Source: a virus
Direction: 5' to 3' (one strand)
Virus record (IMG/VR): IMGVR_UViG_3300020404_000058
Location: 1 to 26,297 of that record
Length of the DNA stretch: 26,297 nt
Below the pieces are notes generated by a model. The model searched no databases. It had not been told where the DNA came from and saw only the letters and a program-made list of their open reading frames with translations. A program made the position numbers and the translations under genes. Numbering within the stretch: the first letter of the stretch is position 1; the number at the start of each line of letters is the position of its first letter. Shown here piece after piece: positions 2,991-24,994 of this stretch.

Positions 2991-4019
2991 ATGCCTAACA
3001 TTAGTGCAACTACGCACCCTACGCTGCTGGATTACACCAAGCGGCAAGATCCTGATAAGAGCATCGCGACGATCGTCGAGACTCTTGCTCAGACCAACGA
3101 AGTGCTCGAAGACATGGTCCAACTTGAGGGCAACCTTGAGACCGGCCACCGCACCACTGTCCGTTCGGGTCTTCCGGCTCCGACGTGGCGCAAGCTCTAC
3201 GGCGGCGTCCAGCCGACTAAGAGCGAGACTGTGCAGGTCACGGACACCATCGGCATGATGGAAGCCTACGCCGAGGTTGACAAGCAACTTGCTGACCTGA
3301 ACGGCAACACGGCTGCGTTCCGCATGTCAGAAGACATGGCCCACCTTGAGGGCATGAACCAAGAGTTTGCAGACACGCTGTTCTACGGCGATGAAACGTC
3401 TGCTTCAGAAGAGTTCACTGGCTTTCTGCCGCGCTTCAACTCGTTGAGCGCTGAAAGCTCCGAGAATATTCTGCTGGACACTGACTTTGGTGGTGCTAAC
3501 GCAGCAGACGCTGACAACACCAGCATTTACTTGATTGTTTGGGGGCCGAACACTTGTCACGGCATCTACTCCAAAGGCAGCCAAATGGGTCTGTCAAAGG
3601 AAGACAAGGGCCAAGTAACTGTAGAAGACGTTGTCGGTGATGGCACGGGTGGTCGCATGGAAGCCTACCGCACGCACTACAAGTGGTGCTGTGGCCTGAG
3701 CGTTCGCGACTGGCGCTACATCGTGCGTATGCAGATCGACTCGACGAACCTGGGTGCAGATCCAGCTACGAGCGGCGTTGCAGACATTACGCAAATGATG
3801 TCGGATGCTTGTGAACTCATTCCGAGTCTCAGTGCAGGTCGTGCTGCGTTCTACTGCAACCGCAAGGTTAAGCAAACGCTGCGGAAGCAGTTTGTGACCA
3901 AGGTCAAGCAATCGACCTTGAGCATGGATGAAATTGGTGGCATGACCACCCTTACTTTCGACGGCATCCCGATCCGCAAGGTCGATGCCCTTCGCCTTAA
4001 CGAAGCTCGCATTAGCTAA
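2991..4019 (+). CDS. Major capsid protein
   Basis: 342 residues. Recognisable blocks are DTIGMMEAYAEVDKQLADLN, a MSEDMAHLEGMNQEFADTLF block ending in YGDE, SIYLIVWGPNTCHGIYSKGS, and a C-terminal GGMTTLTFDGIPIRKVDAL. These match the capsid proteins of BPP-1-like (Bbp17) podophages. It has the E-loop-like N-terminal half and late beta strands expected of an HK97-fold shell protein. Position between scaffold and cement genes supports the call. GAGGAG upstream (spacing ~8) gives a strong ribosome site for a highly expressed protein. The length is usual for the family. Confidence 0.88.
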   Translation: MPNISATTHPTLLDYTKRQDPDKSIATIVETLAQTNEVLEDMVQLEGNLETGHRTTVRSGLPAPTWRKLYGGVQPTKSETVQVTDTIGMMEAYAEVDKQLADLNGNTAAFRMSEDMAHLEGMNQEFADTLFYGDETSASEEFTGFLPRFNSLSAESSENILLDTDFGGANAADADNTSIYLIVWGPNTCHGIYSKGSQMGLSKEDKGQVTVEDVVGDGTGGRMEAYRTHYKWCCGLSVRDWRYIVRMQIDSTNLGADPATSGVADITQMMSDACELIPSLSAGRAAFYCNRKVKQTLRKQFVTKVKQSTLSMDEIGGMTTLTFDGIPIRKVDALRLNEARIS

Positions 4020-4034
4020 TAGGAGGACACACAG

Positions 4035-4493
4035 ATGTTGATTGATAAGAGTTTGGAAATGGCGGATGCCGTTGATATTTCGGCAAGCGCAGGTGGCCCG
4101 ACTAAAGTTGGAACGGGCATTGATCTCCGGCCTGTCGGTGTGACTGACAACGCCACGTTGGACATGTCGGTAGGTGAAAACCTTCAGTTTGTGGTCGATT
4201 TCACCACGGCTGTATTGTCGGGTGGCTCGGCTACGGTCAATGTTCACTTGACGACTGCTGACAACGAGGCGTTGACTTCGAACCCTGTCGATATTTTTAC
4301 GACGGGAGCGCAAGCCAAGGCTGATTTGATCGTGGGCAAGCGTTTCCGCGTTGCTCTACCTAAGGCAGACTACAAGCGATTCTTGGGTGTTCGAATCACT
4401 ACGGGAACAGCCACGACCACTGCGGGAGCAATCAATGCCTTCTTGGTCAAGGATGTGAACGCCTGGACCTCTACGGACACGCGCACTGACTAA
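4035..4493 (+). CDS. Bbp16-like capsid cement protein
   Basis: 152 residues, Thr/Ala/Val-rich and all-beta in appearance: MLIDKSLEMADA at the start, then VGTGIDLRPVG, NLQFVVDFTTAV, KRFRVALPKAD and FLGVRITTG. The order of motifs and the position straight after the major capsid gene match Bbp16, which decorates and stabilises the BPP-1 capsid at its threefold sites. A full AGGAGG at 4021-4026 precedes the ATG, in keeping with a protein needed in hundreds of copies. The stop overlaps the next start (TAATG). Confidence 0.8.
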   Translation: MLIDKSLEMADAVDISASAGGPTKVGTGIDLRPVGVTDNATLDMSVGENLQFVVDFTTAVLSGGSATVNVHLTTADNEALTSNPVDIFTTGAQAKADLIVGKRFRVALPKADYKRFLGVRITTGTATTTAGAINAFLVKDVNAWTSTDTRTD

Positions 4494-4693
4494 TGAAAGT
4501 CAGAGCAACAAATAGAGGCATTTGCCTCTCTCGTCGCTGGAAACCCGGCGAAGAGTTTGAGGTCAGCGAGCGGTCATTCAATCCTTCTTGGATGGAAGTG
4601 ATCGAGGAGGCACCGGCTAAAAAGAAGCCGGGTCGTCCCAAGAAGCAGCCGAAGGAAGACAAGCCTTCGGCGTCGGAGCAGGCGGAAGTCTGA
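4493..4693 (+). CDS. Small basic protein with AT-hook-like tail
   Basis: 66 residues. The N-terminal half (MKVRATNRGICLSRRWKPGE, then SWMEVIEEAP) looks folded. The second half is low complexity with KKKPGRPKKQ, a good match to the AT-hook core (basic-GRP-basic), then KEDKPSASEQAEV. It starts in the TAATG shared with the cement gene. Short proteins with such tails often sit here in podophage head modules. DNA contact inside the head, or a chaperone role, is a guess from the motif. Confidence 0.55.
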   Translation: MKVRATNRGICLSRRWKPGEEFEVSERSFNPSWMEVIEEAPAKKKPGRPKKQPKEDKPSASEQAEV

Positions 4694-4699
4694 GCCACA

Positions 4700-4733
4700 T
4701 AGTGCGGGGGTCGCAGCCGCCGCCCCCGCGCTA
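4700..4733 (+). other. GC-rich hairpin between head and tail genes
   Basis: TAGTGCGGGGG (4700-4710) pairs with CCCCCGCGCTA (4723-4733): 11 pairs with one wobble and a 12-base loop. No T-run follows, so it is more likely an mRNA processing, protection or attenuation element than a complete terminator. It would allow head genes to be expressed above tail genes. Confidence 0.55.
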
Positions 4734-4736
4734 TAC

Positions 4737-4774
4737 CTGACGGCGGCTACCTGAGGTAAGCCCGTGGCCGTCAG
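4737..4774 (+). promoter_or_regulatory. Long hairpin enclosing the ribosome site and start codon of the tail adaptor fusion
   Basis: CTGACGGC (4737-4744) is the exact complement of GCCGTCAG (4767-4774). Inside it, GGCTACC (4745-4751) pairs with GGTAAGCC (4755-4762) with one bulged A. This gives 15 pairs around a TGA loop. The probable Shine-Dalgarno (GAGGT, 4753-4757) lies in the loop and inner stem, and the GTG start codon (4764-4766) is in the CGTG bulge between the two stems. Translation of the large downstream protein should be throttled or switched by this fold. The pairing is seen directly; the control role is inferred. Confidence 0.55.
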
Positions 4775-7700
4775 AAAGTTTATTGTCGTTGCAGGTCAGA
4801 ATCAGGCTACAGAAGTAGCCAACGCAACGGAGTGGGAGGACAACCACCTCTACGCTGCCATCCGCAGCCCGCGCAACGCGGACTCGCAAACGCCAGACTA
4901 CGCATCTGGTCCCTACAACGACATCCTGACACTGCCCTTTACCTTCAAGGGCGGGCCTCAGTCAGACAACCTTGGGGCTACGACGTTCGGGTCGCACCAG
5001 ACGGCCAACGTCATGGGCAAGGCAACGCAGGCTATCAAGTACCTGACGTTCTACGACCCGACTGCTAGCTACCAGAATCTAGGAACGCAGACTACGTCGT
5101 GCTACCCCGGCACGGGCAAGGTGCTCGCAGGCTCTACGTCTACAAGCATCAACACATCAGTCACTTGGCAGTATGACCCGACAGGGCTTGTCATTACGCG
5201 CCGCAAGACTGGCACTACGCACACTGTAAATACAGCAGCAACTACCGGGACGACGCTTACTTTTGATGCTGCACAAGCTTTTGTGCCGCCTCCAGAAACG
5301 GGCGAACTGTTTGACTTTGTTCCTACGGCTGGCGCTGCGGGATCAACAACCACCGTCAAGTTGCACAACGAGTTTGGTGGAATCGCTGACCCAGGATCTG
5401 CTGGTGATCCGACTACTGGGGCTGCTATTGGCGGGAATGGTCAGCATCTTTGCTTCATCAACAAGATCTTAGACAGCAGTGGAGGCAACGCATCGGCTCG
5501 GGTCGTATGCCGTAGCCGACCTGTTTATGTGGGTCAGCCTATTAAGTTTGCCGAGGGTGGATCAGTCAGTATTCCAACCGGATTTGACAACACCACAACT
5601 TACTACGTCACGCGCAAGGCAGGTCTGCTAGAGACGGTTACGTCATCTGGCTACCTCAACAGCAGTAACCACATTAACTTTACTGGCGCTCACGGCTTAG
5701 GCGCAGATGAGATTGTTAAGTTAAAGGCAGTGACAGGGTCACTACCGAGCAATCTAAACAACACAGACAAATACTTTGTCCAAGTTGTAGATGAAAAGAC
5801 AATTCAGTTGGCTGCAGGCGTTGGCGGTAGTGCAATTGACCTTACTGGAACGGAAACTGACACGGTTCAGATTATTCGTCAGGACAGTTATGCCGCCTTC
5901 TTTATCTCAGACGCTCCAGGGGGAGATGAAAAGGTTGCTTCCGCTGACAGTGGACAGAACGCAATTGCAGCAAACAATCTTCTAATCTCGTTTGAGTCAT
6001 CATTCCGAGGCAGCCTGACTGGTCTTCAACTTCGTTGTTTATCAGGCACTCAAGCAAACGTCGGATTTGCACGGGCAATCCATGACGTAAAGTCTGAGAG
6101 CAACATCAATGTGTTGACTACGGAGGCATTCCCTGAGGCAACGGCAGAAGATGACACGTTTGCCATTGAGGTTCCGCCTCTCAACAACCAGTCAATCCCA
6201 TTCGAGAAGTGGGCTATGTGGTTGCCATGGTCTCCCTTTGAAGGCAGCGCACCGTTTGATGGGCCAGCAACGGTAGCCATTACCTCTACAGCCACTGCAT
6301 TAACGGTGACTGTGCAGGACTCACCAACGCTTGTAGGAGGCATTCCATCTGTTGGAAGTGCCGTCAAGTTCTTTACCAATGGCACTCTGACATCGCCGCT
6401 GGTCCCAGGCAAGATGTATATCGTGTCGTCAGTAGACGGATCGACACTGACCCTACAAGACCTAGATGCCGCAGACGTGTCTAAGATAGTTGGTGTAGAT
6501 GGCGGCACGGCTACTGGCAAGAGCTTTAACGGTGGTAAAACATTAGAGTCAGGCGCTAACTCACGCCATGTGATGTTTGTCTTTGATCAAGACAACAAGA
6601 GAAACCCGTATCCTCCAGGGTTCAACTACCCCAACCACCACGCTACGCCTCGCGCCTATCAGCCTTTTGATGGTCCAGGCCAGATCTCGATCGACCCTAG
6701 CATCAGCTTTCACCCCAGCCTTGCACTCAAGATGCATGAGCACACAGGCGAAACGATGCACGTCCTGGTCTGTGCCATGCGAGACACAAGCATTGGTCAC
6801 AAGGAGGTAGCTGCGTCTACAGACGCAATCACTCCCCACGGATGGCTAGATCAAGCACAGCAAAAGTCTTGGTCTCCTGGCGAGCCCAACAACTGCTTTG
6901 CTCGGCTCGAAGACATGCTTGACGCCGCCAAGCTAGCGTTTGAGGCAGACGGAGACACGGGTGATTGCATAGGCATCTTCTGGGCGCAGGGCGAGGAGGA
7001 TGCTCGACACCAGCCGCTAGCAGACAACTACAAGAACAGCGCCAGCAAGATCCGCTCGTCGATTCGCAAGGCCATCAAGGATCGCTCGCTGACCTCTCTC
7101 GAAGAGGACAAGATCCCGTTTATTCATCCGAAGATTACTACGTCTACGATCTGGACGTATGCTTCTACGGTCAACGCAGCCATCCAAGATCTAGCGGACG
7201 AGGATCACTTTACGCGCACGTTTGAGGTCAGCACGTTTGAGTTGACTGCGGACAAGAACCCTTCGTCGATCAACGGGTCTGTCAAGATCCACTACAGCGG
7301 AGTGGGCATGACCAGCTTAGCGGAGTCTGCCTACAGTGCATGGAAAGACACACAGCAGATGACTTCGCAGGAGATCGACATCTGCAACTTGGCGTTGGCT
7401 CACATCGGAGACAAGGCCACGGTCACCAGTCTCAATCCTTCAGATGGAAGCCACCAAGCCGATCTATGTGCTCGTTACTACCCCGTGGCTAGAGACCTCT
7501 GCTTGGAGCGACATCGCTACGACTTCACCATCAAGCAGTCTGCTTTGGTTGCTCTCACAACTAGCGGAAGAACAGACTTTGAGTATGCCTACCGGCTGCC
7601 GTCTGACTTCGCGGGAGCGATTTCCGTCATCGCGAAGGACTCGCTGGACGACCAAGTCAGTGCGGGCATCAAGATCCCGCAACCGTTTGTCATCGAGCTA

Positions 7701-7991
7701 AACGATGACTACGACCGGATCATCTACTGCAACTTGCAAGATGCAGTTCTTCGATACCAAGCCAAGGTCACCGACTCGTCTCAGTTCTCTAGGATGTTCG
7801 TTTACGCGGTTTCTTGGCAACTAGCCAGCATGCTTGCCGGTGCGTTGATCAAAGGCGACGAAGGCATGGGGGCGGTTAGGAATGCTGGTCAAATGGCTGA
7901 GTTCTACATGCAAAAAGCCGCAGCATTCGACAGTCGGACTACTCGCGAAAAGCCTGTCGTAGACGCCAACACCAACCCCTGGGATCGCTAG
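4764..7991 (+). CDS. Fusion: SGNH/sialate-O-acetylesterase-like domain + beta modules + T7 gp11-like tail adaptor
   Basis: 1075 residues. Residues 4-18 (RKFIVVAGQNQATEV) resemble block I of sialate-O-acetylesterase-type SGNH hydrolases, usually AGQSN. Residues ~60-600 are beta-rich Thr/Gly/Asn modules (e.g. TDKYFVQVVDEKTIQLAAGV). The hydrolase signature resumes at ~640: CAMRDTSI, then GIFWAQGEEDARH (block III, ~737-749), then KIHYSGVGM with His843. Residues 866-1075 (MTSQEIDICNLALAHIGDKA onward) are a complete T7 gp11-like tail tubular protein A, about 200 aa in T7, which joins portal to nozzle. At GQSN the Ser is Asn13, and the Asp three before His843 is Val, so esterase activity is doubtful. 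The enzymatic part may bind or once cut surface glycan. The gp12-like gene starts 2 bases after the stop. Confidence 0.75.
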   Translation: MAVRKFIVVAGQNQATEVANATEWEDNHLYAAIRSPRNADSQTPDYASGPYNDILTLPFTFKGGPQSDNLGATTFGSHQTANVMGKATQAIKYLTFYDPTASYQNLGTQTTSCYPGTGKVLAGSTSTSINTSVTWQYDPTGLVITRRKTGTTHTVNTAATTGTTLTFDAAQAFVPPPETGELFDFVPTAGAAGSTTTVKLHNEFGGIADPGSAGDPTTGAAIGGNGQHLCFINKILDSSGGNASARVVCRSRPVYVGQPIKFAEGGSVSIPTGFDNTTTYYVTRKAGLLETVTSSGYLNSSNHINFTGAHGLGADEIVKLKAVTGSLPSNLNNTDKYFVQVVDEKTIQLAAGVGGSAIDLTGTETDTVQIIRQDSYAAFFISDAPGGDEKVASADSGQNAIAANNLLISFESSFRGSLTGLQLRCLSGTQANVGFARAIHDVKSESNINVLTTEAFPEATAEDDTFAIEVPPLNNQSIPFEKWAMWLPWSPFEGSAPFDGPATVAITSTATALTVTVQDSPTLVGGIPSVGSAVKFFTNGTLTSPLVPGKMYIVSSVDGSTLTLQDLDAADVSKIVGVDGGTATGKSFNGGKTLESGANSRHVMFVFDQDNKRNPYPPGFNYPNHHATPRAYQPFDGPGQISIDPSISFHPSLALKMHEHTGETMHVLVCAMRDTSIGHKEVAASTDAITPHGWLDQAQQKSWSPGEPNNCFARLEDMLDAAKLAFEADGDTGDCIGIFWAQGEEDARHQPLADNYKNSASKIRSSIRKAIKDRSLTSLEEDKIPFIHPKITTSTIWTYASTVNAAIQDLADEDHFTRTFEVSTFELTADKNPSSINGSVKIHYSGVGMTSLAESAYSAWKDTQQMTSQEIDICNLALAHIGDKATVTSLNPSDGSHQADLCARYYPVARDLCLERHRYDFTIKQSALVALTTSGRTDFEYAYRLPSDFAGAISVIAKDSLDDQVSAGIKIPQPFVIELNDDYDRIIYCNLQDAVLRYQAKVTDSSQFSRMFVYAVSWQLASMLAGALIKGDEGMGAVRNAGQMAEFYMQKAAAFDSRTTREKPVVDANTNPWDR

Positions 7992-15387: not shown

Positions 15388-18300
15388 ATGAACACGTTTT
15401 ACGGATCGCCCCTTTTGTTTGGATCTAACATGTCAGGTCAAATCCGTGCAAACCTGCTAGATCCCAACAGGCAAGACCCCAAGGCTTACGCTGCTAAACA
15501 CTCTTCTGTCGCGGCTCCTTTAGGGCCACAAGGACCACAAGATCCTCCGCGTAGTTTTGACAGTATTAAAGCGGAGTATTTGGCAAACAGAGCGTCTTCA
15601 GAAGAGTTTCTGCGTGAGTTTCCGACGCTTTCAGCCAACCTAGCCAACAAAGATTTTGTTGCGCTTGCTTACGACGACATTGGCAACCTGATTGAAACAG
15701 AGGGTTGGTGGAATCAAGTTGCTAACGGTTACGCGGTTGCTCGCAACACTGTCGAAATCGGGCAACTAGGCACTGGGGCCATGTTGGACGAGCGTGACCT
15801 TCGTCCTTACGAGCGCCAAAAACTGCGCCGTATGCGTGACCTGCAACGAGCGCACATGCAAAGCGAGCCAGGGTGGGTGGCTGCTGCAGCAGAACTTGTA
15901 GGGACCATGCAAGAGACATTGGTCTACTCAGGCGGCGTAGGCTTAACCCTTGCCAAGATACCTCCTCTTGCGCCTTTGGCTCCAATTGCAGCGGGGGTCA
16001 CTGCATTTGCTACGAGCTTCAACCTTGAAGCAGGCAACTTGTATGCAGAATTAGTAACCGAACTAGGTTACACGCCTGCACAGGCCAAGCAAATTAGCCA
16101 AGAGTATGGGGCTTACATTGCAGGCTTTGAATCTTTAGGTCTTCGAGGTGCTTCAGCGGGCCTGCGTGGATTGGGCCGTGAATTACTTAAGGGCAAAGGA
16201 AGCCCATTCTTAAACAAGCGTGACTTTGCTAAAGCCTTCAAACAGGTCGTAGTTAAAGACTTTGGTGTTAAGGGAGTTTTAGGGGAATCTGGGACTGAAG
16301 GTGTTCAGGAGGTCTTAACGGAAGCTGCTAAAGTCAAAGCCTCAGAACAGTATCAACCAGACAACCTCTACGAACCGGAATACTACGAGGCTTTCAGCCA
16401 AGCGTTTGTTCACACAGCAAAAGGCATGGTTGTGCTTGGTGGCATTCCTGCTGCTGCCCGGCTAGTGCGTGACACTGTGCGTGCTGCTGAGACGTTGCAC
16501 GACGAGAAAAAAGCAAGGCGAGCCGCTGAGCTTCGTCAACAGGCGTTGGTGCCACAGGCGCACGATCAAGTAGATGCAGAGTCAGGTGAGTCTTCAACTT
16601 ACGATCGCTACTACCTACGCGCCGAAGGGTTTTTAGATACTCTTAGGCAGATTGAGGAAGCGGAAGCGGCTCAAGGTTTGCCTGCTGGACAGTTCCGTGA
16701 GCAAGTAGAGCGTGAACAGCCTGGGTTAATTGCCAAACTAGAAGAAGCAGCAGGCCGCGAAGGCGATGTAGAGATGTCAAAGACGGACTTTGACAGGCTC
16801 TTTGCCAAGACTGAGAAGAAGACTTACGAGGTCTTGTTCCAGCATGTTGCTTTTATGGAAGGCGGGCTAACAACGTTGGAAAGCAAGGCGTTGATGAACA
16901 TCCGCGACCGTGTCATGTCAGACATGGACAAGGAGAGCAAGGAAGCCTTGGAAAACATGAAGGCTTTCGAGGAAGAGGTTGAAGCTGTCCGGCAAGAAAT
17001 TGAAGATCAATTGTCTTCACAGATTGGCGAGGAAGCGGCCAAGGGTTTAGACGCTTCTGCTAGCAGCACATTGTTGATGGCGTTTGTTCGGCGCGGAGCG
17101 GCTGTTTTGAACATCAGCCCCCGAGAGTTTGTTCAGAAATACATGCCACAAGTTGCTCAACAACCTCTAAACCAGCAGAAGGCAGACGAGGCTCAGGCCC
17201 AGCAGCAAACCCAACAGCAGACCGAGCAGCAACAGGTAGAAGTCAATAACGACGACCTCAAGGAGATGACCAAGTCGCAACTTCGTGCAGAGGCGAAGAA
17301 GCACCCTGGCGTCAAACGCAACGGCAAGGGGGTTACTGTCGATTCCCTTATCCAAGGGATTACGGAAGCGCGTGCAGCGGAGGCTCAAGCCCAGCAACGA
17401 CCTCAAACAGACACCCTAGATTCCGGCACCCTCTACAGCAAGGAGGGCGGTCGGACTCAAGCAAGAACAACAAAGTATGATGTTGCGCGCCAGCAGTTAG
17501 AAAACATCGCGTTGATTGAAAAGGCAGGCAAAATCGACACTCTTAGCGATGCAGAAGTTACAACTCTATACGACTCCCTTAAAAACGTAGGCTTCCAAAC
17601 TCAAGACGTAAGAACTCAACGTAGTGTTCTGCTTAACCTGCAAGGTAGAAGGGAGCAATACGAAGCAACTGTTGCCCAAGAATCGGAGTATGAAACACTC
17701 AAACTAAGGCAAGAGATTTCTCTCGGGTTTATTAGAGGATACGCCGCAGACGGGAAGGCTGGCGAGACTCGAATGAGCAATGACTTTGCTGATTCAGAGT
17801 CTGGGCTAAGAAAGGCTTTAGACGAATACGAGCGCCTAACTGGAGACGTTCTGCAAGAGTCTGAACTTGTCGGCATGATCCGCGATGTTCGCGGCAAGAC
17901 CATGCGCGCCGACAAAGCAGAGCAGCAAGACTCTGACGAAAGCTACCGTCGCAAAGCAGAGGGCTTAGAAGCAAAGCGGTCAGACATGGACATAGATGAC
18001 ATGTCGCGGCGCAAAAAATATGAAGCGGCGTATGGCATTTGGGAGGGTCGAGAAGCAACGCCACAAGGCATTTTCACAGGCGTTAGTGAGGATGTCTCAC
18101 GAACCTTTACCCTCTATAGCAAGGAGGGCGATCAGAAGCGCAAAACTCTAGGCACCGCCTCTTTCGAGGGCACGGACGCTATCCAGAAGATCCTGCTTGA
18201 CCCCGACGCCAAGCCAACAACTCTGATGCATGAGTTGATGCACTGGAACTTGGAGTTCTTGTCTGTGACTGGTTTGGCTATTGAGCAGAAGCCAGAGTCC

Positions 18301-21300
18301 GAGCGCACGGCCCTAGAGAAGCAGAACCTCAAGGACATCCAAGAACTGCTGAAGTGGGCTGGCTACGAAGGCACGTTGGAAGGCTGGCGCAACATGAGTC
18401 TTGATCAGCGTCGCCCGTTCCACGAAGCGATTGCAGCTTCTTTTGAACTGTATTTGTATGACCCTAATAAGTCTGCGCCGACCCCGCAGTTGAAGAGCAT
18501 CTTTGCGCGGCTAATCAAGTATCTGACTACGACCTACAAAGAGTTGGTTGTTAAGTTTCAAAAGGAATACGAGGACGAGTTCAAAAGGCCACTGCCGGGT
18601 TTGAACGAAGATGTCCGCGCAATCTTCGGACGCATGATGTCTGCCGAGCGGGACACGATGGCGTTCTTTGATGAGCACGACCTAAGCGCCATGATGGTTA
18701 CCCGCGAAGAGTGGGAAGCTGCTGGTCGAGATCCAAAGGATTACGAAGAATACGATCGCGAGTTCAAGGCTGCGCTAGCAGAATCGCAAGCAGAACTGAC
18801 TCAGCGCAGGATGGAGGAAATTGGCTGGCAAGGCCGTGCCCGTGAGCGAACGGCTGGAAAGATTCGGGGACAGCGTCGGCGCACGGAGTCGAAAGTTAGA
18901 GATGACATGGAAGAAGAAGTCCGCACGACTCGCGTCTTCCAACTTCGCAGCTTTATCTCTAACGGCTTCTATCAAGACACTAAGGCAGGAAGAGTCTCGC
19001 CAGACAAGGTGCCTAGCACACGCCTTAGTTATGAGCAGGTGGCTGCTATCGACGAGGAGATGGCGGTCGAACTTGCTAAGATGGGCTTGCTTAAGAGGCA
19101 GAACGGTTTGCCACTGGACGCAGCCCGCAAAATGTTCGGCTACGAGAGCAACGAGGAGATGCTGTTGGAACTCTCGGAGTCTCGCTCAATCCAAGGAGAG
19201 ATCGACTACCGCGTTGACCGCTACATGATTGAGGAGCAGTCAGGATTGACTGACCCCGTCTTGATTGAGGAGCGCATCCAAGCAGCGATTCACAGCCGAG
19301 CAAGAGAAAGGATGATCGGCTTAGAACTGAAATACATCCTGAACAATGGGCGCAACACAAAGGCAGAACTAGACCTTGCTCGCGGCATAGCTAAGGAAAT
19401 AATTTCCAACACGCCTACGGGTGACATCAACCTAACAGCTTACAATCACGCTGCCGTTCGTGCTCGCAAGAAAGCTCTCAAGGCTCTTAAAGACGGAGAC
19501 CTTGCTGCCGCCGCTTTTGCAAAGCGTCAAGAACTAGTCAACGAAGCGTTGATTCGCGAGGGCAAGAAGGCTCGCCAAGAAGTTGGCAAACTTGTTCGGT
19601 CTAGCCGCCGCGTGTTTAAGGCTCAGTCTGACGAGAAACTAGCCAAGCAGAAGAAAGATGTAATCATCGTCAAAGCTCTGCGTGCCTTGTTAGTGCAGCT
19701 TGGCATTGGGTCGATTGAAGGTGATCCTGTGGCGTTATTGGTGCGCTTCTCGCAGCACGACCCTGAGTTCTTTGCAGCTATAGCCAAGGAGATTGGATAC
19801 TTCCAAGGATTGGAACTGCAAGGTCCGGTGACTGGCGATCGTCGAAAGCAGATCGAGCGAATGAAGTTGGCCGATGTTCAGCGTTTGCGCGAACTGATCA
19901 ATGTCTGGATGAAACGAGCGAGCGACGTTCGATCAGCCGAACTGGAGGGTCGGAAAGAAGACGTTGAGACGATGCAGCAAGAACTGCTGGATCAAATCTC
20001 TACTATCCCGGTAGACCCAGATGCCTCTGCAAGGAAAAATAGCATTTGGTCTAACATCCGAGATTACTTCTCAGACCTCATTCGTTTTGAACACCTGTTC
20101 CGGCGCATCGACCAGGGTCAGATAGGTCCGTGGACGCGCTTGTTCGTGATGATCAAGGATGCTGGCAATGCTTACCGAGCAGAGAGCAAGGCATTCATGT
20201 CCAAGGACAAAGCCACGGGCAAAGGCTTTGACATGGAGGGTCGCCTTCGACAGTTAGACCTTACCATGCCAGGAGGAGAGAAGAGCATTGAGGTGACCTT
20301 CGGTGGGACAAAAGTAACTCTTGGCAGCAAAAATGCTGGAGCCAAGACGGAGATCATCCACCTAGCGATGCACTACTACGGCAACGCTAGTAACCGCGAG
20401 AGATTGGTATCTGGCTATGCTGGTGAAGACGCCACTGATGCCCAACTTCAGCGCACTGCTATCGACATTCAGAGGTTCTTGGAACAGCAGATCGCTGCTG
20501 GTGTGCTGACAAAGCAAGACTTTGAGTTTATGCAGGCGGTGTTTAATCACCTCAGTAGCGATGACATGCTGGGCCGTGCTCAAAAAGTGATGCGCGAGAC
20601 ACGTGGCTACGAGATGGAGACCATTAAATCTCAGCCGTTTCAGATCTTGTTCCCCGGCCAAGAAGGCACGACGGAGTTCAAGGGTGGATACATTCCTGTC
20701 AAGTTTGACCCAGACTTCCGACGCCAAACTGTGCAGACCTTGGAAGAAGGCGAGATGACGCTGGAGCAACAGCACGACTACATCTTGACCGTGCTGCCAG
20801 CTTTCACCAAAGACCGCTCGAAGACCCCTTCAGGCCAGCGCCTTCTTCTAGACTTGGCAAGTATCGGACACCATGCGATGGAGGTGTATCGCTACATCCA
20901 CATGACCAAGCCTGCGACCAACATCTACAGGGTAATCAACGGTCTGGACGGTCGAAGCCCTGTCGCTACTGCGTTCGTCGAGCGTTTTGGGCAAAGGGCT
21001 TACCGGAACTTGCTAAGTTGGATGAAGCGTTCTGCTTATCAGTCGTTCGAGCGTGACGACAGCCAAGTTGGGGACTTCCTCTACATGCTGGCTCGCAATG
21101 CCAACATCGGGATCATGTTCCTGAATGTTGGTAACGCTTTGCAGAACTACACAGGATTGATTATGCCGATGCGACGACTAGGCGCTCGTCGCGTGATGTC
21201 TGCTCTGACTCGCACGTTTATGAGCAAGACGATTAAGGAAGAGATTGCTGCCAAGTCGCCAGAGATGAAGGCGCGTTTAGAGCGCCAGATCTTTGACATC

Positions 21301-22182
21301 ATGGAGAACCAGCGCCGCCTGATGACTAGCGAGGATTCGGTCTGGACTAAGACTAAGGGCTGGGTTGCCAAGAACGCCTACATCTTGCAGCAGATCACGC
21401 AGAACCAAGTAGACATCGCTGTCTGGCAAGCGGCCTACAACAAGGAGACTGAGGCTGCTCTTAGCCAGGAGGGCGTGACAGAAGAAGAGGCCGAAGCAAG
21501 AGCCATTGCGTTTGCAGATAGCGTGGTGCGTAGCACGCAGATGGCTGGCGAGAAGGAGGATGTCTCGATGTTTGAGGCGAAGGGCGGTCTTTATAAAGCT
21601 TTCTTCCCTTTCAAGTCTTGGTTCGTCAACTGGATGAACAATGCCTACGCGCAGGGAGCGATCGACCTGAGCGAAAACGATCGGAACAAGGTGGCGGAAC
21701 TAGCGACCACCTACATGTATCTGCTTATGGTCCCGGCCATGCTGGCATCTGCAACCACGTTGATCGCCAGAGGCGAGGATTGGGACGATGATGATGACGG
21801 CTACAGCGACGACCTCATTGAGTTCTGGTTCCGCAGTCAGATGGATCAGGCAGTAGGTGGCATTCCGGTTGGGGCGGATGCCTGGAGGTTCTTCTCAAAC
21901 AACTGGTTCGACGACGAATACTGGAACAACCGCTTCCCGATTGCGCCTTGGCAGTCTGCCTTCGAGAGAGTGCAGAGGTCTTTAAGCAAGGCTGGCGATG
22001 ATCCCCTCAACCTAGCCTCCGAGATGGCGACCATGATGGGTGTCCCTGTGCGTGGCGTGTTCAACCGTGTGTCTCTAATTGGAGATCAACTAACTGGGGA
22101 ATTGGAGAGCGAAACCACATTTGACGCTCTCCGAGCTTTCCTGACAGGCCAGCGGAGCGACCTGCAACGGCTGAGTCAGTAA
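15388..22182 (+). CDS. Giant ejection/polyvalent virion protein with zinc-metallopeptidase motif, T7 gp16-like position
   Basis: 2264 residues, well above T7 gp16 (~1318). Residues ~158-265 hold hydrophobic helices (LTLAKIPPLAPLAPIAAGVT; YGAYIAGFESLGLRG), suiting membrane passage. A Gln-rich linker lies near 590-620, then a SAP/Rho-N-like stretch (LKEMTKSQLRAEAKKHPGVK, ~622-660). Residues ~920-1050 contain TTLMHELMHWNLEFL, with HELMH at 948-952 as a zincin HExxH. The downstream FHEAIAASFELYLYDPNKSA and IFARLIKYLTTTYKEL match the peptidase module of phage polyvalent proteins. Residues ~1860-2230 (FFPFKSWFVNWMNNAYAQGA, GEDWDDDDDGYSDDL) resemble their conserved C-terminal (LPD38-like) domain. 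No lytic transglycosylase motif was seen. It is probably packed in the head and ejected into the cell. Confidence 0.78.
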   Translation: MNTFYGSPLLFGSNMSGQIRANLLDPNRQDPKAYAAKHSSVAAPLGPQGPQDPPRSFDSIKAEYLANRASSEEFLREFPTLSANLANKDFVALAYDDIGNLIETEGWWNQVANGYAVARNTVEIGQLGTGAMLDERDLRPYERQKLRRMRDLQRAHMQSEPGWVAAAAELVGTMQETLVYSGGVGLTLAKIPPLAPLAPIAAGVTAFATSFNLEAGNLYAELVTELGYTPAQAKQISQEYGAYIAGFESLGLRGASAGLRGLGRELLKGKGSPFLNKRDFAKAFKQVVVKDFGVKGVLGESGTEGVQEVLTEAAKVKASEQYQPDNLYEPEYYEAFSQAFVHTAKGMVVLGGIPAAARLVRDTVRAAETLHDEKKARRAAELRQQALVPQAHDQVDAESGESSTYDRYYLRAEGFLDTLRQIEEAEAAQGLPAGQFREQVEREQPGLIAKLEEAAGREGDVEMSKTDFDRLFAKTEKKTYEVLFQHVAFMEGGLTTLESKALMNIRDRVMSDMDKESKEALENMKAFEEEVEAVRQEIEDQLSSQIGEEAAKGLDASASSTLLMAFVRRGAAVLNISPREFVQKYMPQVAQQPLNQQKADEAQAQQQTQQQTEQQQVEVNNDDLKEMTKSQLRAEAKKHPGVKRNGKGVTVDSLIQGITEARAAEAQAQQRPQTDTLDSGTLYSKEGGRTQARTTKYDVARQQLENIALIEKAGKIDTLSDAEVTTLYDSLKNVGFQTQDVRTQRSVLLNLQGRREQYEATVAQESEYETLKLRQEISLGFIRGYAADGKAGETRMSNDFADSESGLRKALDEYERLTGDVLQESELVGMIRDVRGKTMRADKAEQQDSDESYRRKAEGLEAKRSDMDIDDMSRRKKYEAAYGIWEGREATPQGIFTGVSEDVSRTFTLYSKEGDQKRKTLGTASFEGTDAIQKILLDPDAKPTTLMHELMHWNLEFLSVTGLAIEQKPESERTALEKQNLKDIQELLKWAGYEGTLEGWRNMSLDQRRPFHEAIAASFELYLYDPNKSAPTPQLKSIFARLIKYLTTTYKELVVKFQKEYEDEFKRPLPGLNEDVRAIFGRMMSAERDTMAFFDEHDLSAMMVTREEWEAAGRDPKDYEEYDREFKAALAESQAELTQRRMEEIGWQGRARERTAGKIRGQRRRTESKVRDDMEEEVRTTRVFQLRSFISNGFYQDTKAGRVSPDKVPSTRLSYEQVAAIDEEMAVELAKMGLLKRQNGLPLDAARKMFGYESNEEMLLELSESRSIQGEIDYRVDRYMIEEQSGLTDPVLIEERIQAAIHSRARERMIGLELKYILNNGRNTKAELDLARGIAKEIISNTPTGDINLTAYNHAAVRARKKALKALKDGDLAAAAFAKRQELVNEALIREGKKARQEVGKLVRSSRRVFKAQSDEKLAKQKKDVIIVKALRALLVQLGIGSIEGDPVALLVRFSQHDPEFFAAIAKEIGYFQGLELQGPVTGDRRKQIERMKLADVQRLRELINVWMKRASDVRSAELEGRKEDVETMQQELLDQISTIPVDPDASARKNSIWSNIRDYFSDLIRFEHLFRRIDQGQIGPWTRLFVMIKDAGNAYRAESKAFMSKDKATGKGFDMEGRLRQLDLTMPGGEKSIEVTFGGTKVTLGSKNAGAKTEIIHLAMHYYGNASNRERLVSGYAGEDATDAQLQRTAIDIQRFLEQQIAAGVLTKQDFEFMQAVFNHLSSDDMLGRAQKVMRETRGYEMETIKSQPFQILFPGQEGTTEFKGGYIPVKFDPDFRRQTVQTLEEGEMTLEQQHDYILTVLPAFTKDRSKTPSGQRLLLDLASIGHHAMEVYRYIHMTKPATNIYRVINGLDGRSPVATAFVERFGQRAYRNLLSWMKRSAYQSFERDDSQVGDFLYMLARNANIGIMFLNVGNALQNYTGLIMPMRRLGARRVMSALTRTFMSKTIKEEIAAKSPEMKARLERQIFDIMENQRRLMTSEDSVWTKTKGWVAKNAYILQQITQNQVDIAVWQAAYNKETEAALSQEGVTEEEAEARAIAFADSVVRSTQMAGEKEDVSMFEAKGGLYKAFFPFKSWFVNWMNNAYAQGAIDLSENDRNKVAELATTYMYLLMVPAMLASATTLIARGEDWDDDDDGYSDDLIEFWFRSQMDQAVGGIPVGADAWRFFSNNWFDDEYWNNRFPIAPWQSAFERVQRSLSKAGDDPLNLASEMATMMGVPVRGVFNRVSLIGDQLTGELESETTFDALRAFLTGQRSDLQRLSQ
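17428..17452 (+). repeat. Direct repeat copy 1 (25 bases, encodes TLYSKEGG)
   Basis: This 25-base stretch recurs 681 bases (227 codons) downstream at 18109-18133 with two differences (C/T at the 9th base, G/A at the 23rd). Both copies are in frame and encode TLYSKEG. They bracket an AT-richer block in the giant ejection protein gene. Confidence 0.85.
18109..18133 (+). repeat. Direct repeat copy 2 (25 bases, encodes TLYSKEGD)
   Basis: This matches 23 of 25 bases of 17428-17452. It lies just before the metallopeptidase segment. The sequence between the copies encodes a charged helical block (residues ~689-907) that could be excised or exchanged without breaking the frame. Confidence 0.85.
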
Positions 22183-23758: not shown

Positions 23759-24185
23759 CTAGGCACTGCTCTTCGACCGACTGCATAAACTTCATGGTCG
23801 CATCCCAGGGATCGACTAGCATTCCTTCAGAGCACAGGTAGTCGAGCAGTGACTTCTGGCACTTGAAGTGCGGGCCAGGATCAAACCACTCGTCTCCGTA
23901 GATCGGGGTAGCGATTCTAAGTAGGTGCTGTTCGTGGATCTTCCAGTCTTCGGACCACGCAAGCGCAACCAAGTTCATCCGGACCTTCTTTTTGATACCC
24001 GGCACCTTCTGGTTGCCGTGGATGCGGCAGATCGGGCAGTTCTTGGTGCCTCCCAGCTTTAACAAAGTGCCTTCATCGTTAAGCGCGGCGTAACACCAGC
24101 CCTGCCTGCCCTGTCGAGACTCTTGAAGCCTGTTGATGAGGCCCATGAGTTGAGGCGAGAACTCTCGGTGATCGTGATTCCTCAT
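23748..24185 (-). CDS. GIY-YIG-like protein (MUG113/T5orf172 type)
   Basis: 145 residues. WCYAAL (30-35) and LLKLGGTKN (41-49) occupy the places of the GIY and YIG strands. Arg54 in PICRIHG and Glu85 in KIHEQHLLRIATP fit the conserved Arg and Glu of the fold, and DEWFDPGPHF (98-107) resembles the EWF block of MUG113-type members. These are small GIY-YIG-fold proteins in phages, often presumed nucleases. The first Tyr of the GIY motif is replaced (W-C-Y). The start lies in an ATGA overlap with the helicase loader, so it belongs to the replication operon. Activity is uncertain. Confidence 0.6.
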   Translation of the reverse strand: MRNHDHREFSPQLMGLINRLQESRQGRQGWCYAALNDEGTLLKLGGTKNCPICRIHGNQKVPGIKKKVRMNLVALAWSEDWKIHEQHLLRIATPIYGDEWFDPGPHFKCQKSLLDYLCSEGMLVDPWDATMKFMQSVEEQCLATT

Positions 24186-24994
24186 TTCCTCTGATCCTCC
24201 CAGTAGAATCCCAGCATCTGCCCGTCCTGTCTCAGTCTTGAGATCATGGCTTCCCCTAGGTATTCCACGAACTCATCCTTGGTCATGTTCGACACTAGGA
24301 TGGTGGGCCTGACCTCTCGGTAGCGGCTGTCGAAGAGGGCGAACAGGCTGTCTGCGGCGTGCTTGCTGTCCTTGTGTCGCCCGACTTCGTCCACGACCAG
24401 CAGGCTGGGAGCGGTGTAGGCATCGAACACTTCGCTCTCCATCTCGGTAGCTCCGCTGCCGTAGCAGTTTCGCAGCCGGGTCAGGAACTCGTTGGCCGTG
24501 ACGTAGCAGGCGCTGTGACCCCTCTTCAGGATCAGGTTGTTGACGATCGAGCACGCGGCGAAGGTCTTGCCGGTGCCTGGGTTGCCGATGAAGATGAGGC
24601 TGGAGCCCCTCTCCAGCGCGATCTCGAACTCCTCCAGATACTTGCGAAGTTTGTCTCCGATCTTCTTCATCGCTGGATCTGTGTCGCGCCAGTTCTCCAG
24701 GGTTGCATCGAAGTATCGAGGCGGCACCCCGGCCTGGACCAGCAGAAGCTCGTTGACCTGCGACTTCACGGTGTCATCGTCGGTAAGCCATGCGTTGTAG
24801 CGGGCTTGTAGTTCCTTCTCCTCCTTCTCGATCTCTTCGTTGCAGCGCGGGCACTTCGTCCAGAAGGCTTGGCACCGTGGGTGCCGGTGAGCCATCAGAT
24901 CGGACTCGTAGTTGCCGTGCTCGGGGCACTTCTTCAGCCCCGACTCGACCACCCGCCATGCGTTCATGTATTCAGCCTTGTCGCTCTCTTCCAT
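24182..24994 (-). CDS. DnaC-like replicative helicase loader (AAA+ ATPase)
   Basis: 270 residues. The N-terminal part has a zinc-ribbon-like CPEH (23-26) paired with CPRC (48-51), as in many phage loaders. Walker A is GNPGTGKT (137-144), Walker B LLVVDEVG (~198-205), and sensor-like SNMTKDEFVEYLG and ISRLRQDG (Arg finger region) follow. Such proteins open and place the host DnaB ring at the origin. GGAGG at 25004-25008 (minus-strand reading) lies 9 bases before the ATG and sets the start. It follows the organizer gene after a 77-base gap, the lambda O-P order. Confidence 0.88.
   Translation of the reverse strand: MEESDKAEYMNAWRVVESGLKKCPEHGNYESDLMAHRHPRCQAFWTKCPRCNEEIEKEEKELQARYNAWLTDDDTVKSQVNELLLVQAGVPPRYFDATLENWRDTDPAMKKIGDKLRKYLEEFEIALERGSSLIFIGNPGTGKTFAACSIVNNLILKRGHSACYVTANEFLTRLRNCYGSGATEMESEVFDAYTAPSLLVVDEVGRHKDSKHAADSLFALFDSRYREVRPTILVSNMTKDEFVEYLGEAMISRLRQDGQMLGFYWEDQRK

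Follow-up and report, generated by a model that had tools for sequence, protein, structure and literature searches.

A conserved pair of RNA hairpins at the capsid/tail gene boundary of a BPP-1-like virus clade: a candidate leader lowering translation of an esterase-adaptor gene

Each virion of a tailed phage contains capsid proteins in the hundreds and only a few tail adaptors. Several phages have a hairpin or terminator near the boundary between the corresponding genes, and others control single genes by RNA structures at or near the start site, as at the MS2 replicase operator. In T7, the Tphi terminator is found at the boundary equivalent to the one described here. BPP-1 carries a hairpin followed by a U-tract at the equivalent place (bbp15-bbp14) and phiV10 a similar hairpin one gene earlier, while BcepC6B has a gap of only 11 bases and no hairpin. 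In LUZ100 and T7 the capsid gene is described as being followed directly by a strong terminator (PMC10134795). Inhibitory RNA structures at the gene start are described for T4 e, soc, 49 and I-TevI; for e and I-TevI, early and late transcripts are distinguished by this block, late promoters lying beside the ribosome binding site (PMC3014915).

Here, we analyzed a virus record of 26.3 kb over its whole length (the window), whose structural genes are BPP-1-like. A protease/scaffold-type ORF (2353-2979, phrog_458) is followed on the + strand by the major capsid protein gene of the BPP-1 Bbp17/GP7 family (2991-4019; Pfam PF20911, E 6e-121; phrog_212), a Bbp16-like gene (4035-4493; PF21190, E 2.6e-16) and an ORF of 66 aa (4493-4693), which is also present in relatives and is the last gene 5' of the hairpins. 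The 66-aa protein contains a basic KKKPGRPKKQPK stretch, which we take to resemble an AT-hook, and judged by this stretch it could bind nucleic acids. After a gap of 70 bases the GTG start of a 1075-aa esterase-adaptor fusion gene follows (4764-7991, +). Gene order and Pfam/phrog matches confirmed the location of the hairpins between capsid and tail genes, as claimed in an earlier note on this DNA. No Rfam family matched the window above its gathering score and no tRNA was detected in it. A scan for sigma-70-like promoters, which does not cover phage promoters, listed none at 4690-4770. Elsewhere in the window a single ORF of 2264 aa was found at 15388-22182, and an IstB/DnaC-like ATPase is encoded at 24182-24994 on the - strand, in the direction opposite to the structural genes.

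The earlier note had named the gene after the hairpins a low-copy adaptor. The adaptor domain was indeed found, but fused to an esterase: the N-terminal part matched the SASA carbohydrate-esterase family of Pfam in 11 of 11 family members, and the C-terminal part carried the tail adaptor domain phrog_394 (aa 869-1065). The adaptor region covers the last 200 residues (aa about 866-1065) and matched the connector of PDB 8ck1 (E 4.4e-15). In distant relatives the adaptor gene begins directly with the adaptor domain, while in the window the N-terminal part of about 866 aa precedes it. An endosialidase beta barrel was matched in 3 of 11 members of the fusion family. Relatives share the MAVRKF start, which backs the GTG as start codon; among them are two stand-alone esterases from other phages (about 30% identity), both also beginning with GTG (L140, 3977-6088; L141, near 3531). 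A hairpin lies upstream of both stand-alone genes and is followed by TTTT in L140, terminator-like. Searching genome contigs for relatives of the esterase N-terminus yielded 24 candidate stretches, none of which was confirmed, and the N-terminal part had no match among INPHARED phages. A predicted structure of the fusion protein (mean pLDDT 50.7) was too poor for use.

Folding of the region 4640-4790 gave -77.8 kcal/mol compared to -54.6 kcal/mol (sd 4.3) for 200 shuffled sequences, none of which folded as low (z -5.4). As proposed before, two stable hairpins lie back to back, HP1 (4699-4734) and HP2 (4737-4774), separated by two bases. HP1 has a GC-rich stem of 13 pairs plus two inner pairs and, with -27.7 kcal/mol, was the most stable of 8752 overlapping 42-base windows on the + strand (mean -8.1 kcal/mol). 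HP2 (-20.7 kcal/mol) was folded around the Shine-Dalgarno sequence and the GTG start. Its outer stem (4737-4744/4767-4774) has 8 pairs and its inner stem (4745-4751/4755-4762) 7 pairs, so that the earlier count of 15 pairs was reproduced; the inner stem is not perfect, containing the one-base bulge A4758. The loop is UGA 4752-4754, and the bulge between the stems consists of C4763 and GTG 4764-4766. The Shine-Dalgarno sequence GAGG (4753-4756, position -11) lies with its G and A in the loop and with GG within the inner stem, and the outer 3' arm spans codons 2 and 3 and two bases of codon 4, both as the note had described. The start codon of the window was predicted unpaired (p 0.97) though enclosed by HP2. 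This placement in the bulge holds for the window and is lost in two relatives (L005, L011), for which a different inner stem was predicted, with the Shine-Dalgarno sequence placed entirely within the loop and two bases of the start codon (GU) paired.

Scanning IMG/VR with the capsid protein revealed 459 relatives, of which 80 were retained. Those with a capsid identity of at least 76% form the clade of the window, as far as their DNA reaches, since several end before the leader. A leader set was assembled from the capsid scan, esterase scans and a pattern scan; among the stretches from this and a further pattern scan (40 and 37) only family members carry the element, and the rest look like chance matches. 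The leader is present in 15 contigs including the window, 11 of a group 1 and 4 of a group 2; one group 1 contig is in two pieces with a short stretch between them missing. Leaving out near-copies or incomplete sequences (L003, L127 and the split contig), 8 group 1 and 4 group 2 sequences were aligned. A covariance model gave 14 full and 2 partial + strand matches among 85 sources, one place per source; it had been built from 12 of these 14 full matches, and the partial ones are the two ends of one contig. Its minus-strand matches (15-25 bits) overlap the + strand places. No match was obtained in 63 distant capsid relatives, nor in L140 and L141. A description of the leader was not found by title or abstract start among the open-licence papers retrieved for the leader/boundary or the fusion protein.

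Within group 1, identity to the window was 93-100% for HP1 and 89-100% for HP2. The five more distant members are only 46-54% identical to the window in the Bbp16 gene, 68-83% in the 66-aa ORF and 52-83% in the coding sequence past codon 4. In L012, L011, L005, L002 and L004 the 63 leader bases differ from the window at 1-5 positions, against a divergence of 31-49% at capsid-gene fourfold sites (P 7.8e-6 to 1e-15). Excess conservation of the leader was seen for 5 of 6 group 1 relatives compared, the sixth and closest one (L015; 0/63 differences, fourfold 7%) being too similar to inform. The leader part of HP2 (27 compared bases) showed 1 difference each in L012, L002 and L004, nearly the conservation of HP1. 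These comparisons demonstrate, at the level of sequence, strong constraint on the leader in group 1. In the group 2 contigs L008 and L013, 25 of 63 leader bases differ at 55-56% fourfold divergence (P about 0.01), not far from neutral, with HP1 differing at only 8 of 32 bases.

None of the 11 distinct sequences lacks any of the 13 counted pairs of HP1. Three of these pairs differ between groups 1 and 2, each changed on both sides, and one of these compensated changes, U-G to G-U, allows pairing only as + strand RNA. As these compensations all go back to the single divergence of the two groups, they represent few events. The substitution pattern demonstrates that HP1 is a conserved + strand RNA hairpin under selection. 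HP1 has the GC-rich stem at an operon end that is typical of a terminator, the operon end being taken from gene order only, but no U-tract follows the stem: the next letters are ACCTGACGG, and the terminator scan did not list HP1. Among the 63 distant capsid relatives an adaptor gene was found in 58 and, as far as their DNA reaches, none in 5. The gap before it was <40 bases in 38 of the 58 and at least 40 bases in 20, and all 20 of the latter, many of them near-identical contigs, carry a strong hairpin. A U-rich stretch, read by eye, comes after or at the stem end in 8 of these 20. Since hairpins or terminators are common at this boundary, HP1 appears to be the version of this clade, lacking the U-tract.

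For HP2 the groups differ. In group 1 the outer stem is invariant, and because it never varies, covariation is not available for it; the compensatory changes in related phages that the earlier note had named as a check were found at the three pairs of HP1 and not in the outer stem of HP2. Codons 2-4 are identical in 8 of 8 aligned group 1 sequences, and codons 2-5 show no synonymous change in these 8 sequences while codons 6, 7, 11 and 15 vary synonymously. L140 and L141 encode the same MAVRKF with other codons and without a hairpin of the HP2 type, in line with the proposed mutual constraint of coding and structure. Permuting the leader 5000 times per sequence with the coding part kept fixed, the duplex of leader and start region of the window was equalled in 6 and its fold in 9 of 5000 shuffles; in all three group 1 sequences tested the duplex was reached by 1-8 of 5000. 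The four group 2 contigs have lost three consecutive outer pairs of 8 without compensation and part of the inner stem as well, which is in part the very finding that the note had named as speaking against its reading. Here, for L008, 302 (duplex) and 1092 (fold) of 5000 shuffles were as good, which is not clearly above chance. An alternative register of 9 pairs, joining GGCGGCUAC (4742-4750, +) to GUGGCCGUC (4764-4772) with the start codon paired, is kept in 11 of 11 distinct sequences apart from one pair lost in 2. It is weaker in group 1 than the register of the earlier note and is the only start-site register left in group 2, where the starts were predicted to be closed for the most part by a different pairing, which involves downstream codons. 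Judged from these alignments and folds, the strong HP2 belongs to group 1, and group 2 keeps HP1 with only a weak pairing of the start.

Opening of the start site in the window was calculated to cost 9.6 kcal/mol in a narrow or 14.4 kcal/mol in a wide context. The wide-context value was the fourth highest of 16 genes (coordinate 11544 was excluded, not being a start codon), three other genes of the window requiring 15.5-22.1 kcal/mol, and the narrow-context value was lower than the median for 400 positions chosen at random (13.0 kcal/mol). In wide context, the window and 10 family members ranged from 14.4 to 19.4 kcal/mol, L141 required 7.1 and L140 9.7 kcal/mol. With such moderate opening energies the numbers alone do not mark HP2 as exceptional. 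Nevertheless, Shine-Dalgarno sequence and/or start codon lie inside a stable helix in group 1, as in the structures of T4 gene e type that sequester the ribosome binding site, and by the modelled structure HP2 may well lower translation initiation at the adaptor start. Taking together the conservation in group 1, the breakage in group 2 and the moderate opening energy, HP2 is best described as a clade-specific hairpin of a known kind that probably lowers translation.

In our preferred reading, to which we assign a probability of about 0.5, the two hairpins form one conserved RNA leader in which HP1 would act on the end of the capsid message and HP2 would lower translation of the adaptor. HP1 would stand where related phages have a terminator or hairpin of the capsid operon and, lacking a U-tract, would most likely mark or protect the abundant capsid mRNA at its 3' end while permitting partial read-through. 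In the read-through message HP2 would fold over the esterase-adaptor gene's Shine-Dalgarno sequence and start codon, slowing the binding of 30S subunits and keeping the amount of the large tail protein below that of the capsid proteins. The action of HP2 would be of the type of T4 gene e, soc and I-TevI, but constitutive. A second explanation assigns a function to HP1 alone, as 3' end or attenuator of the capsid operon; HP2 would then be an incidental product of a conserved, GC-rich start region and would place no limit on translation. All covariation sits in HP1, relatives often have a boundary hairpin and no HP2, in group 2 HP1 is present and a strong HP2 is missing, and the opening cost of the start site is ordinary. 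However, the near-HP1 conservation of the HP2 leader part in L012, L002 and L004 and the frozen codons 2-5 of group 1 speak against it, and we consider this explanation unlikely, if still of some weight. In a two-state leader, GGCGGCUA would pair either with the start region (closed) or, as a pseudoknot, with the HP1 loop (open), and adaptor translation would be set by HP1, through its state or through a bound protein. The HP1 loop strand AGCCGCCG (4715-4722, +) is complementary to 4741-4748, and in all aligned sequences AGYCGCC of the loop can pair with GGCGGCU in the 5' arm of HP2. Across both groups, each of the 11 distinct sequences could form seven of the 8 pairs, with one G-U in group 2, such pairing was reached in 45-110 of 5000 shuffled leaders (four sequences), and GGCGGCTA is the longest invariant block from HP1 to the start codon in the 12-sequence alignment. 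On the other hand, the pairing sequences are simple GC-rich words, the putative pseudoknot was scored by complementarity alone, and both strands are invariant except for a single wobble and the loss of an end pair, so that covariation cannot decide on the pairing. Beyond this complementarity nothing was found for the switch suggested by the earlier note. We regard the two-state leader as quite unlikely, and there is a slight chance that HP1 and the adaptor start codon compete for GGCGGCUA, the state of HP1 or a bound capsid-operon product setting the amount of the esterase-adaptor.

Two further explanations were considered. The conserved island might be a DNA boundary promoting recombination of tail modules instead of a regulatory RNA. 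In other phages, sequences of this kind have been suggested (PMC3029335), and such a boundary would fit the esterases of L002 and L004, which over the first 400 aa are only 39-40% identical to that of the window and strongly divergent despite the common leader. An exact match of 38 bases is present at the boundary, but comparable ones also occur within the capsid gene, and the compensatory changes in HP1, including the one from U-G to G-U, fit RNA and not DNA exchange, making this explanation very unlikely. Ribosomes in the +1 frame might alternatively cross both hairpins, stop at UGA 4752-4754 beside the GTG and thereby couple adaptor translation. The +1 frame is open from the stop of the 66-aa ORF to the UGA near the Shine-Dalgarno sequence (window 4693-4754) in 8 of 8 group 1 sequences; in group 2, however, its stop lies some 33 bases before the GTG. 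Third positions of this frame hold 17 of 35 changes (P 0.044 for this frame alone), which is not significant after testing three frames, and inspection by eye found no slippery site or start codon for the frame. Such coupling is therefore extremely unlikely, and with its weak periodicity the +1 frame was also rejected as main explanation in the form of a coding extension.

If the leader of two hairpins acts as proposed, a hairpin in the place of a terminator together with a hairpin at a start site would offer a compact natural means of setting the ratio of capsid to adaptor. Moreover, BPP-1-like phages can have a capsid/tail boundary hairpin that lacks a U-tract and is paired with a second structure. 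The leader joins two elements in an unusual combination, start-inhibiting structures being already known in T4. Compared to T7 and BPP-1, the window likewise has a GC-rich hairpin between capsid-side and tail genes, directly 5' of an adaptor-type gene. With phiV10 and LUZ100 it shares a GC-rich hairpin at the boundary of capsid-side and tail genes. HP1 differs from T7 Tphi and from the hairpins of BPP-1, phiV10 and LUZ100 in lacking a U-tract and in being followed immediately by a second hairpin over a start codon. Like the structures of T4 e, soc, 49 and I-TevI, HP2 places the Shine-Dalgarno sequence and/or the start codon of a phage gene in a helix within the mRNA. It differs from those of e and I-TevI by its position at the head/tail boundary and by the absence of a sigma-70-like promoter from the list for this place. 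The MS2 replicase operator and the T4 gene 32 pseudoknot (the latter in PMC3014915) resemble the leader as structures at or near a start, the predicted leader structure being a conceivable protein target.
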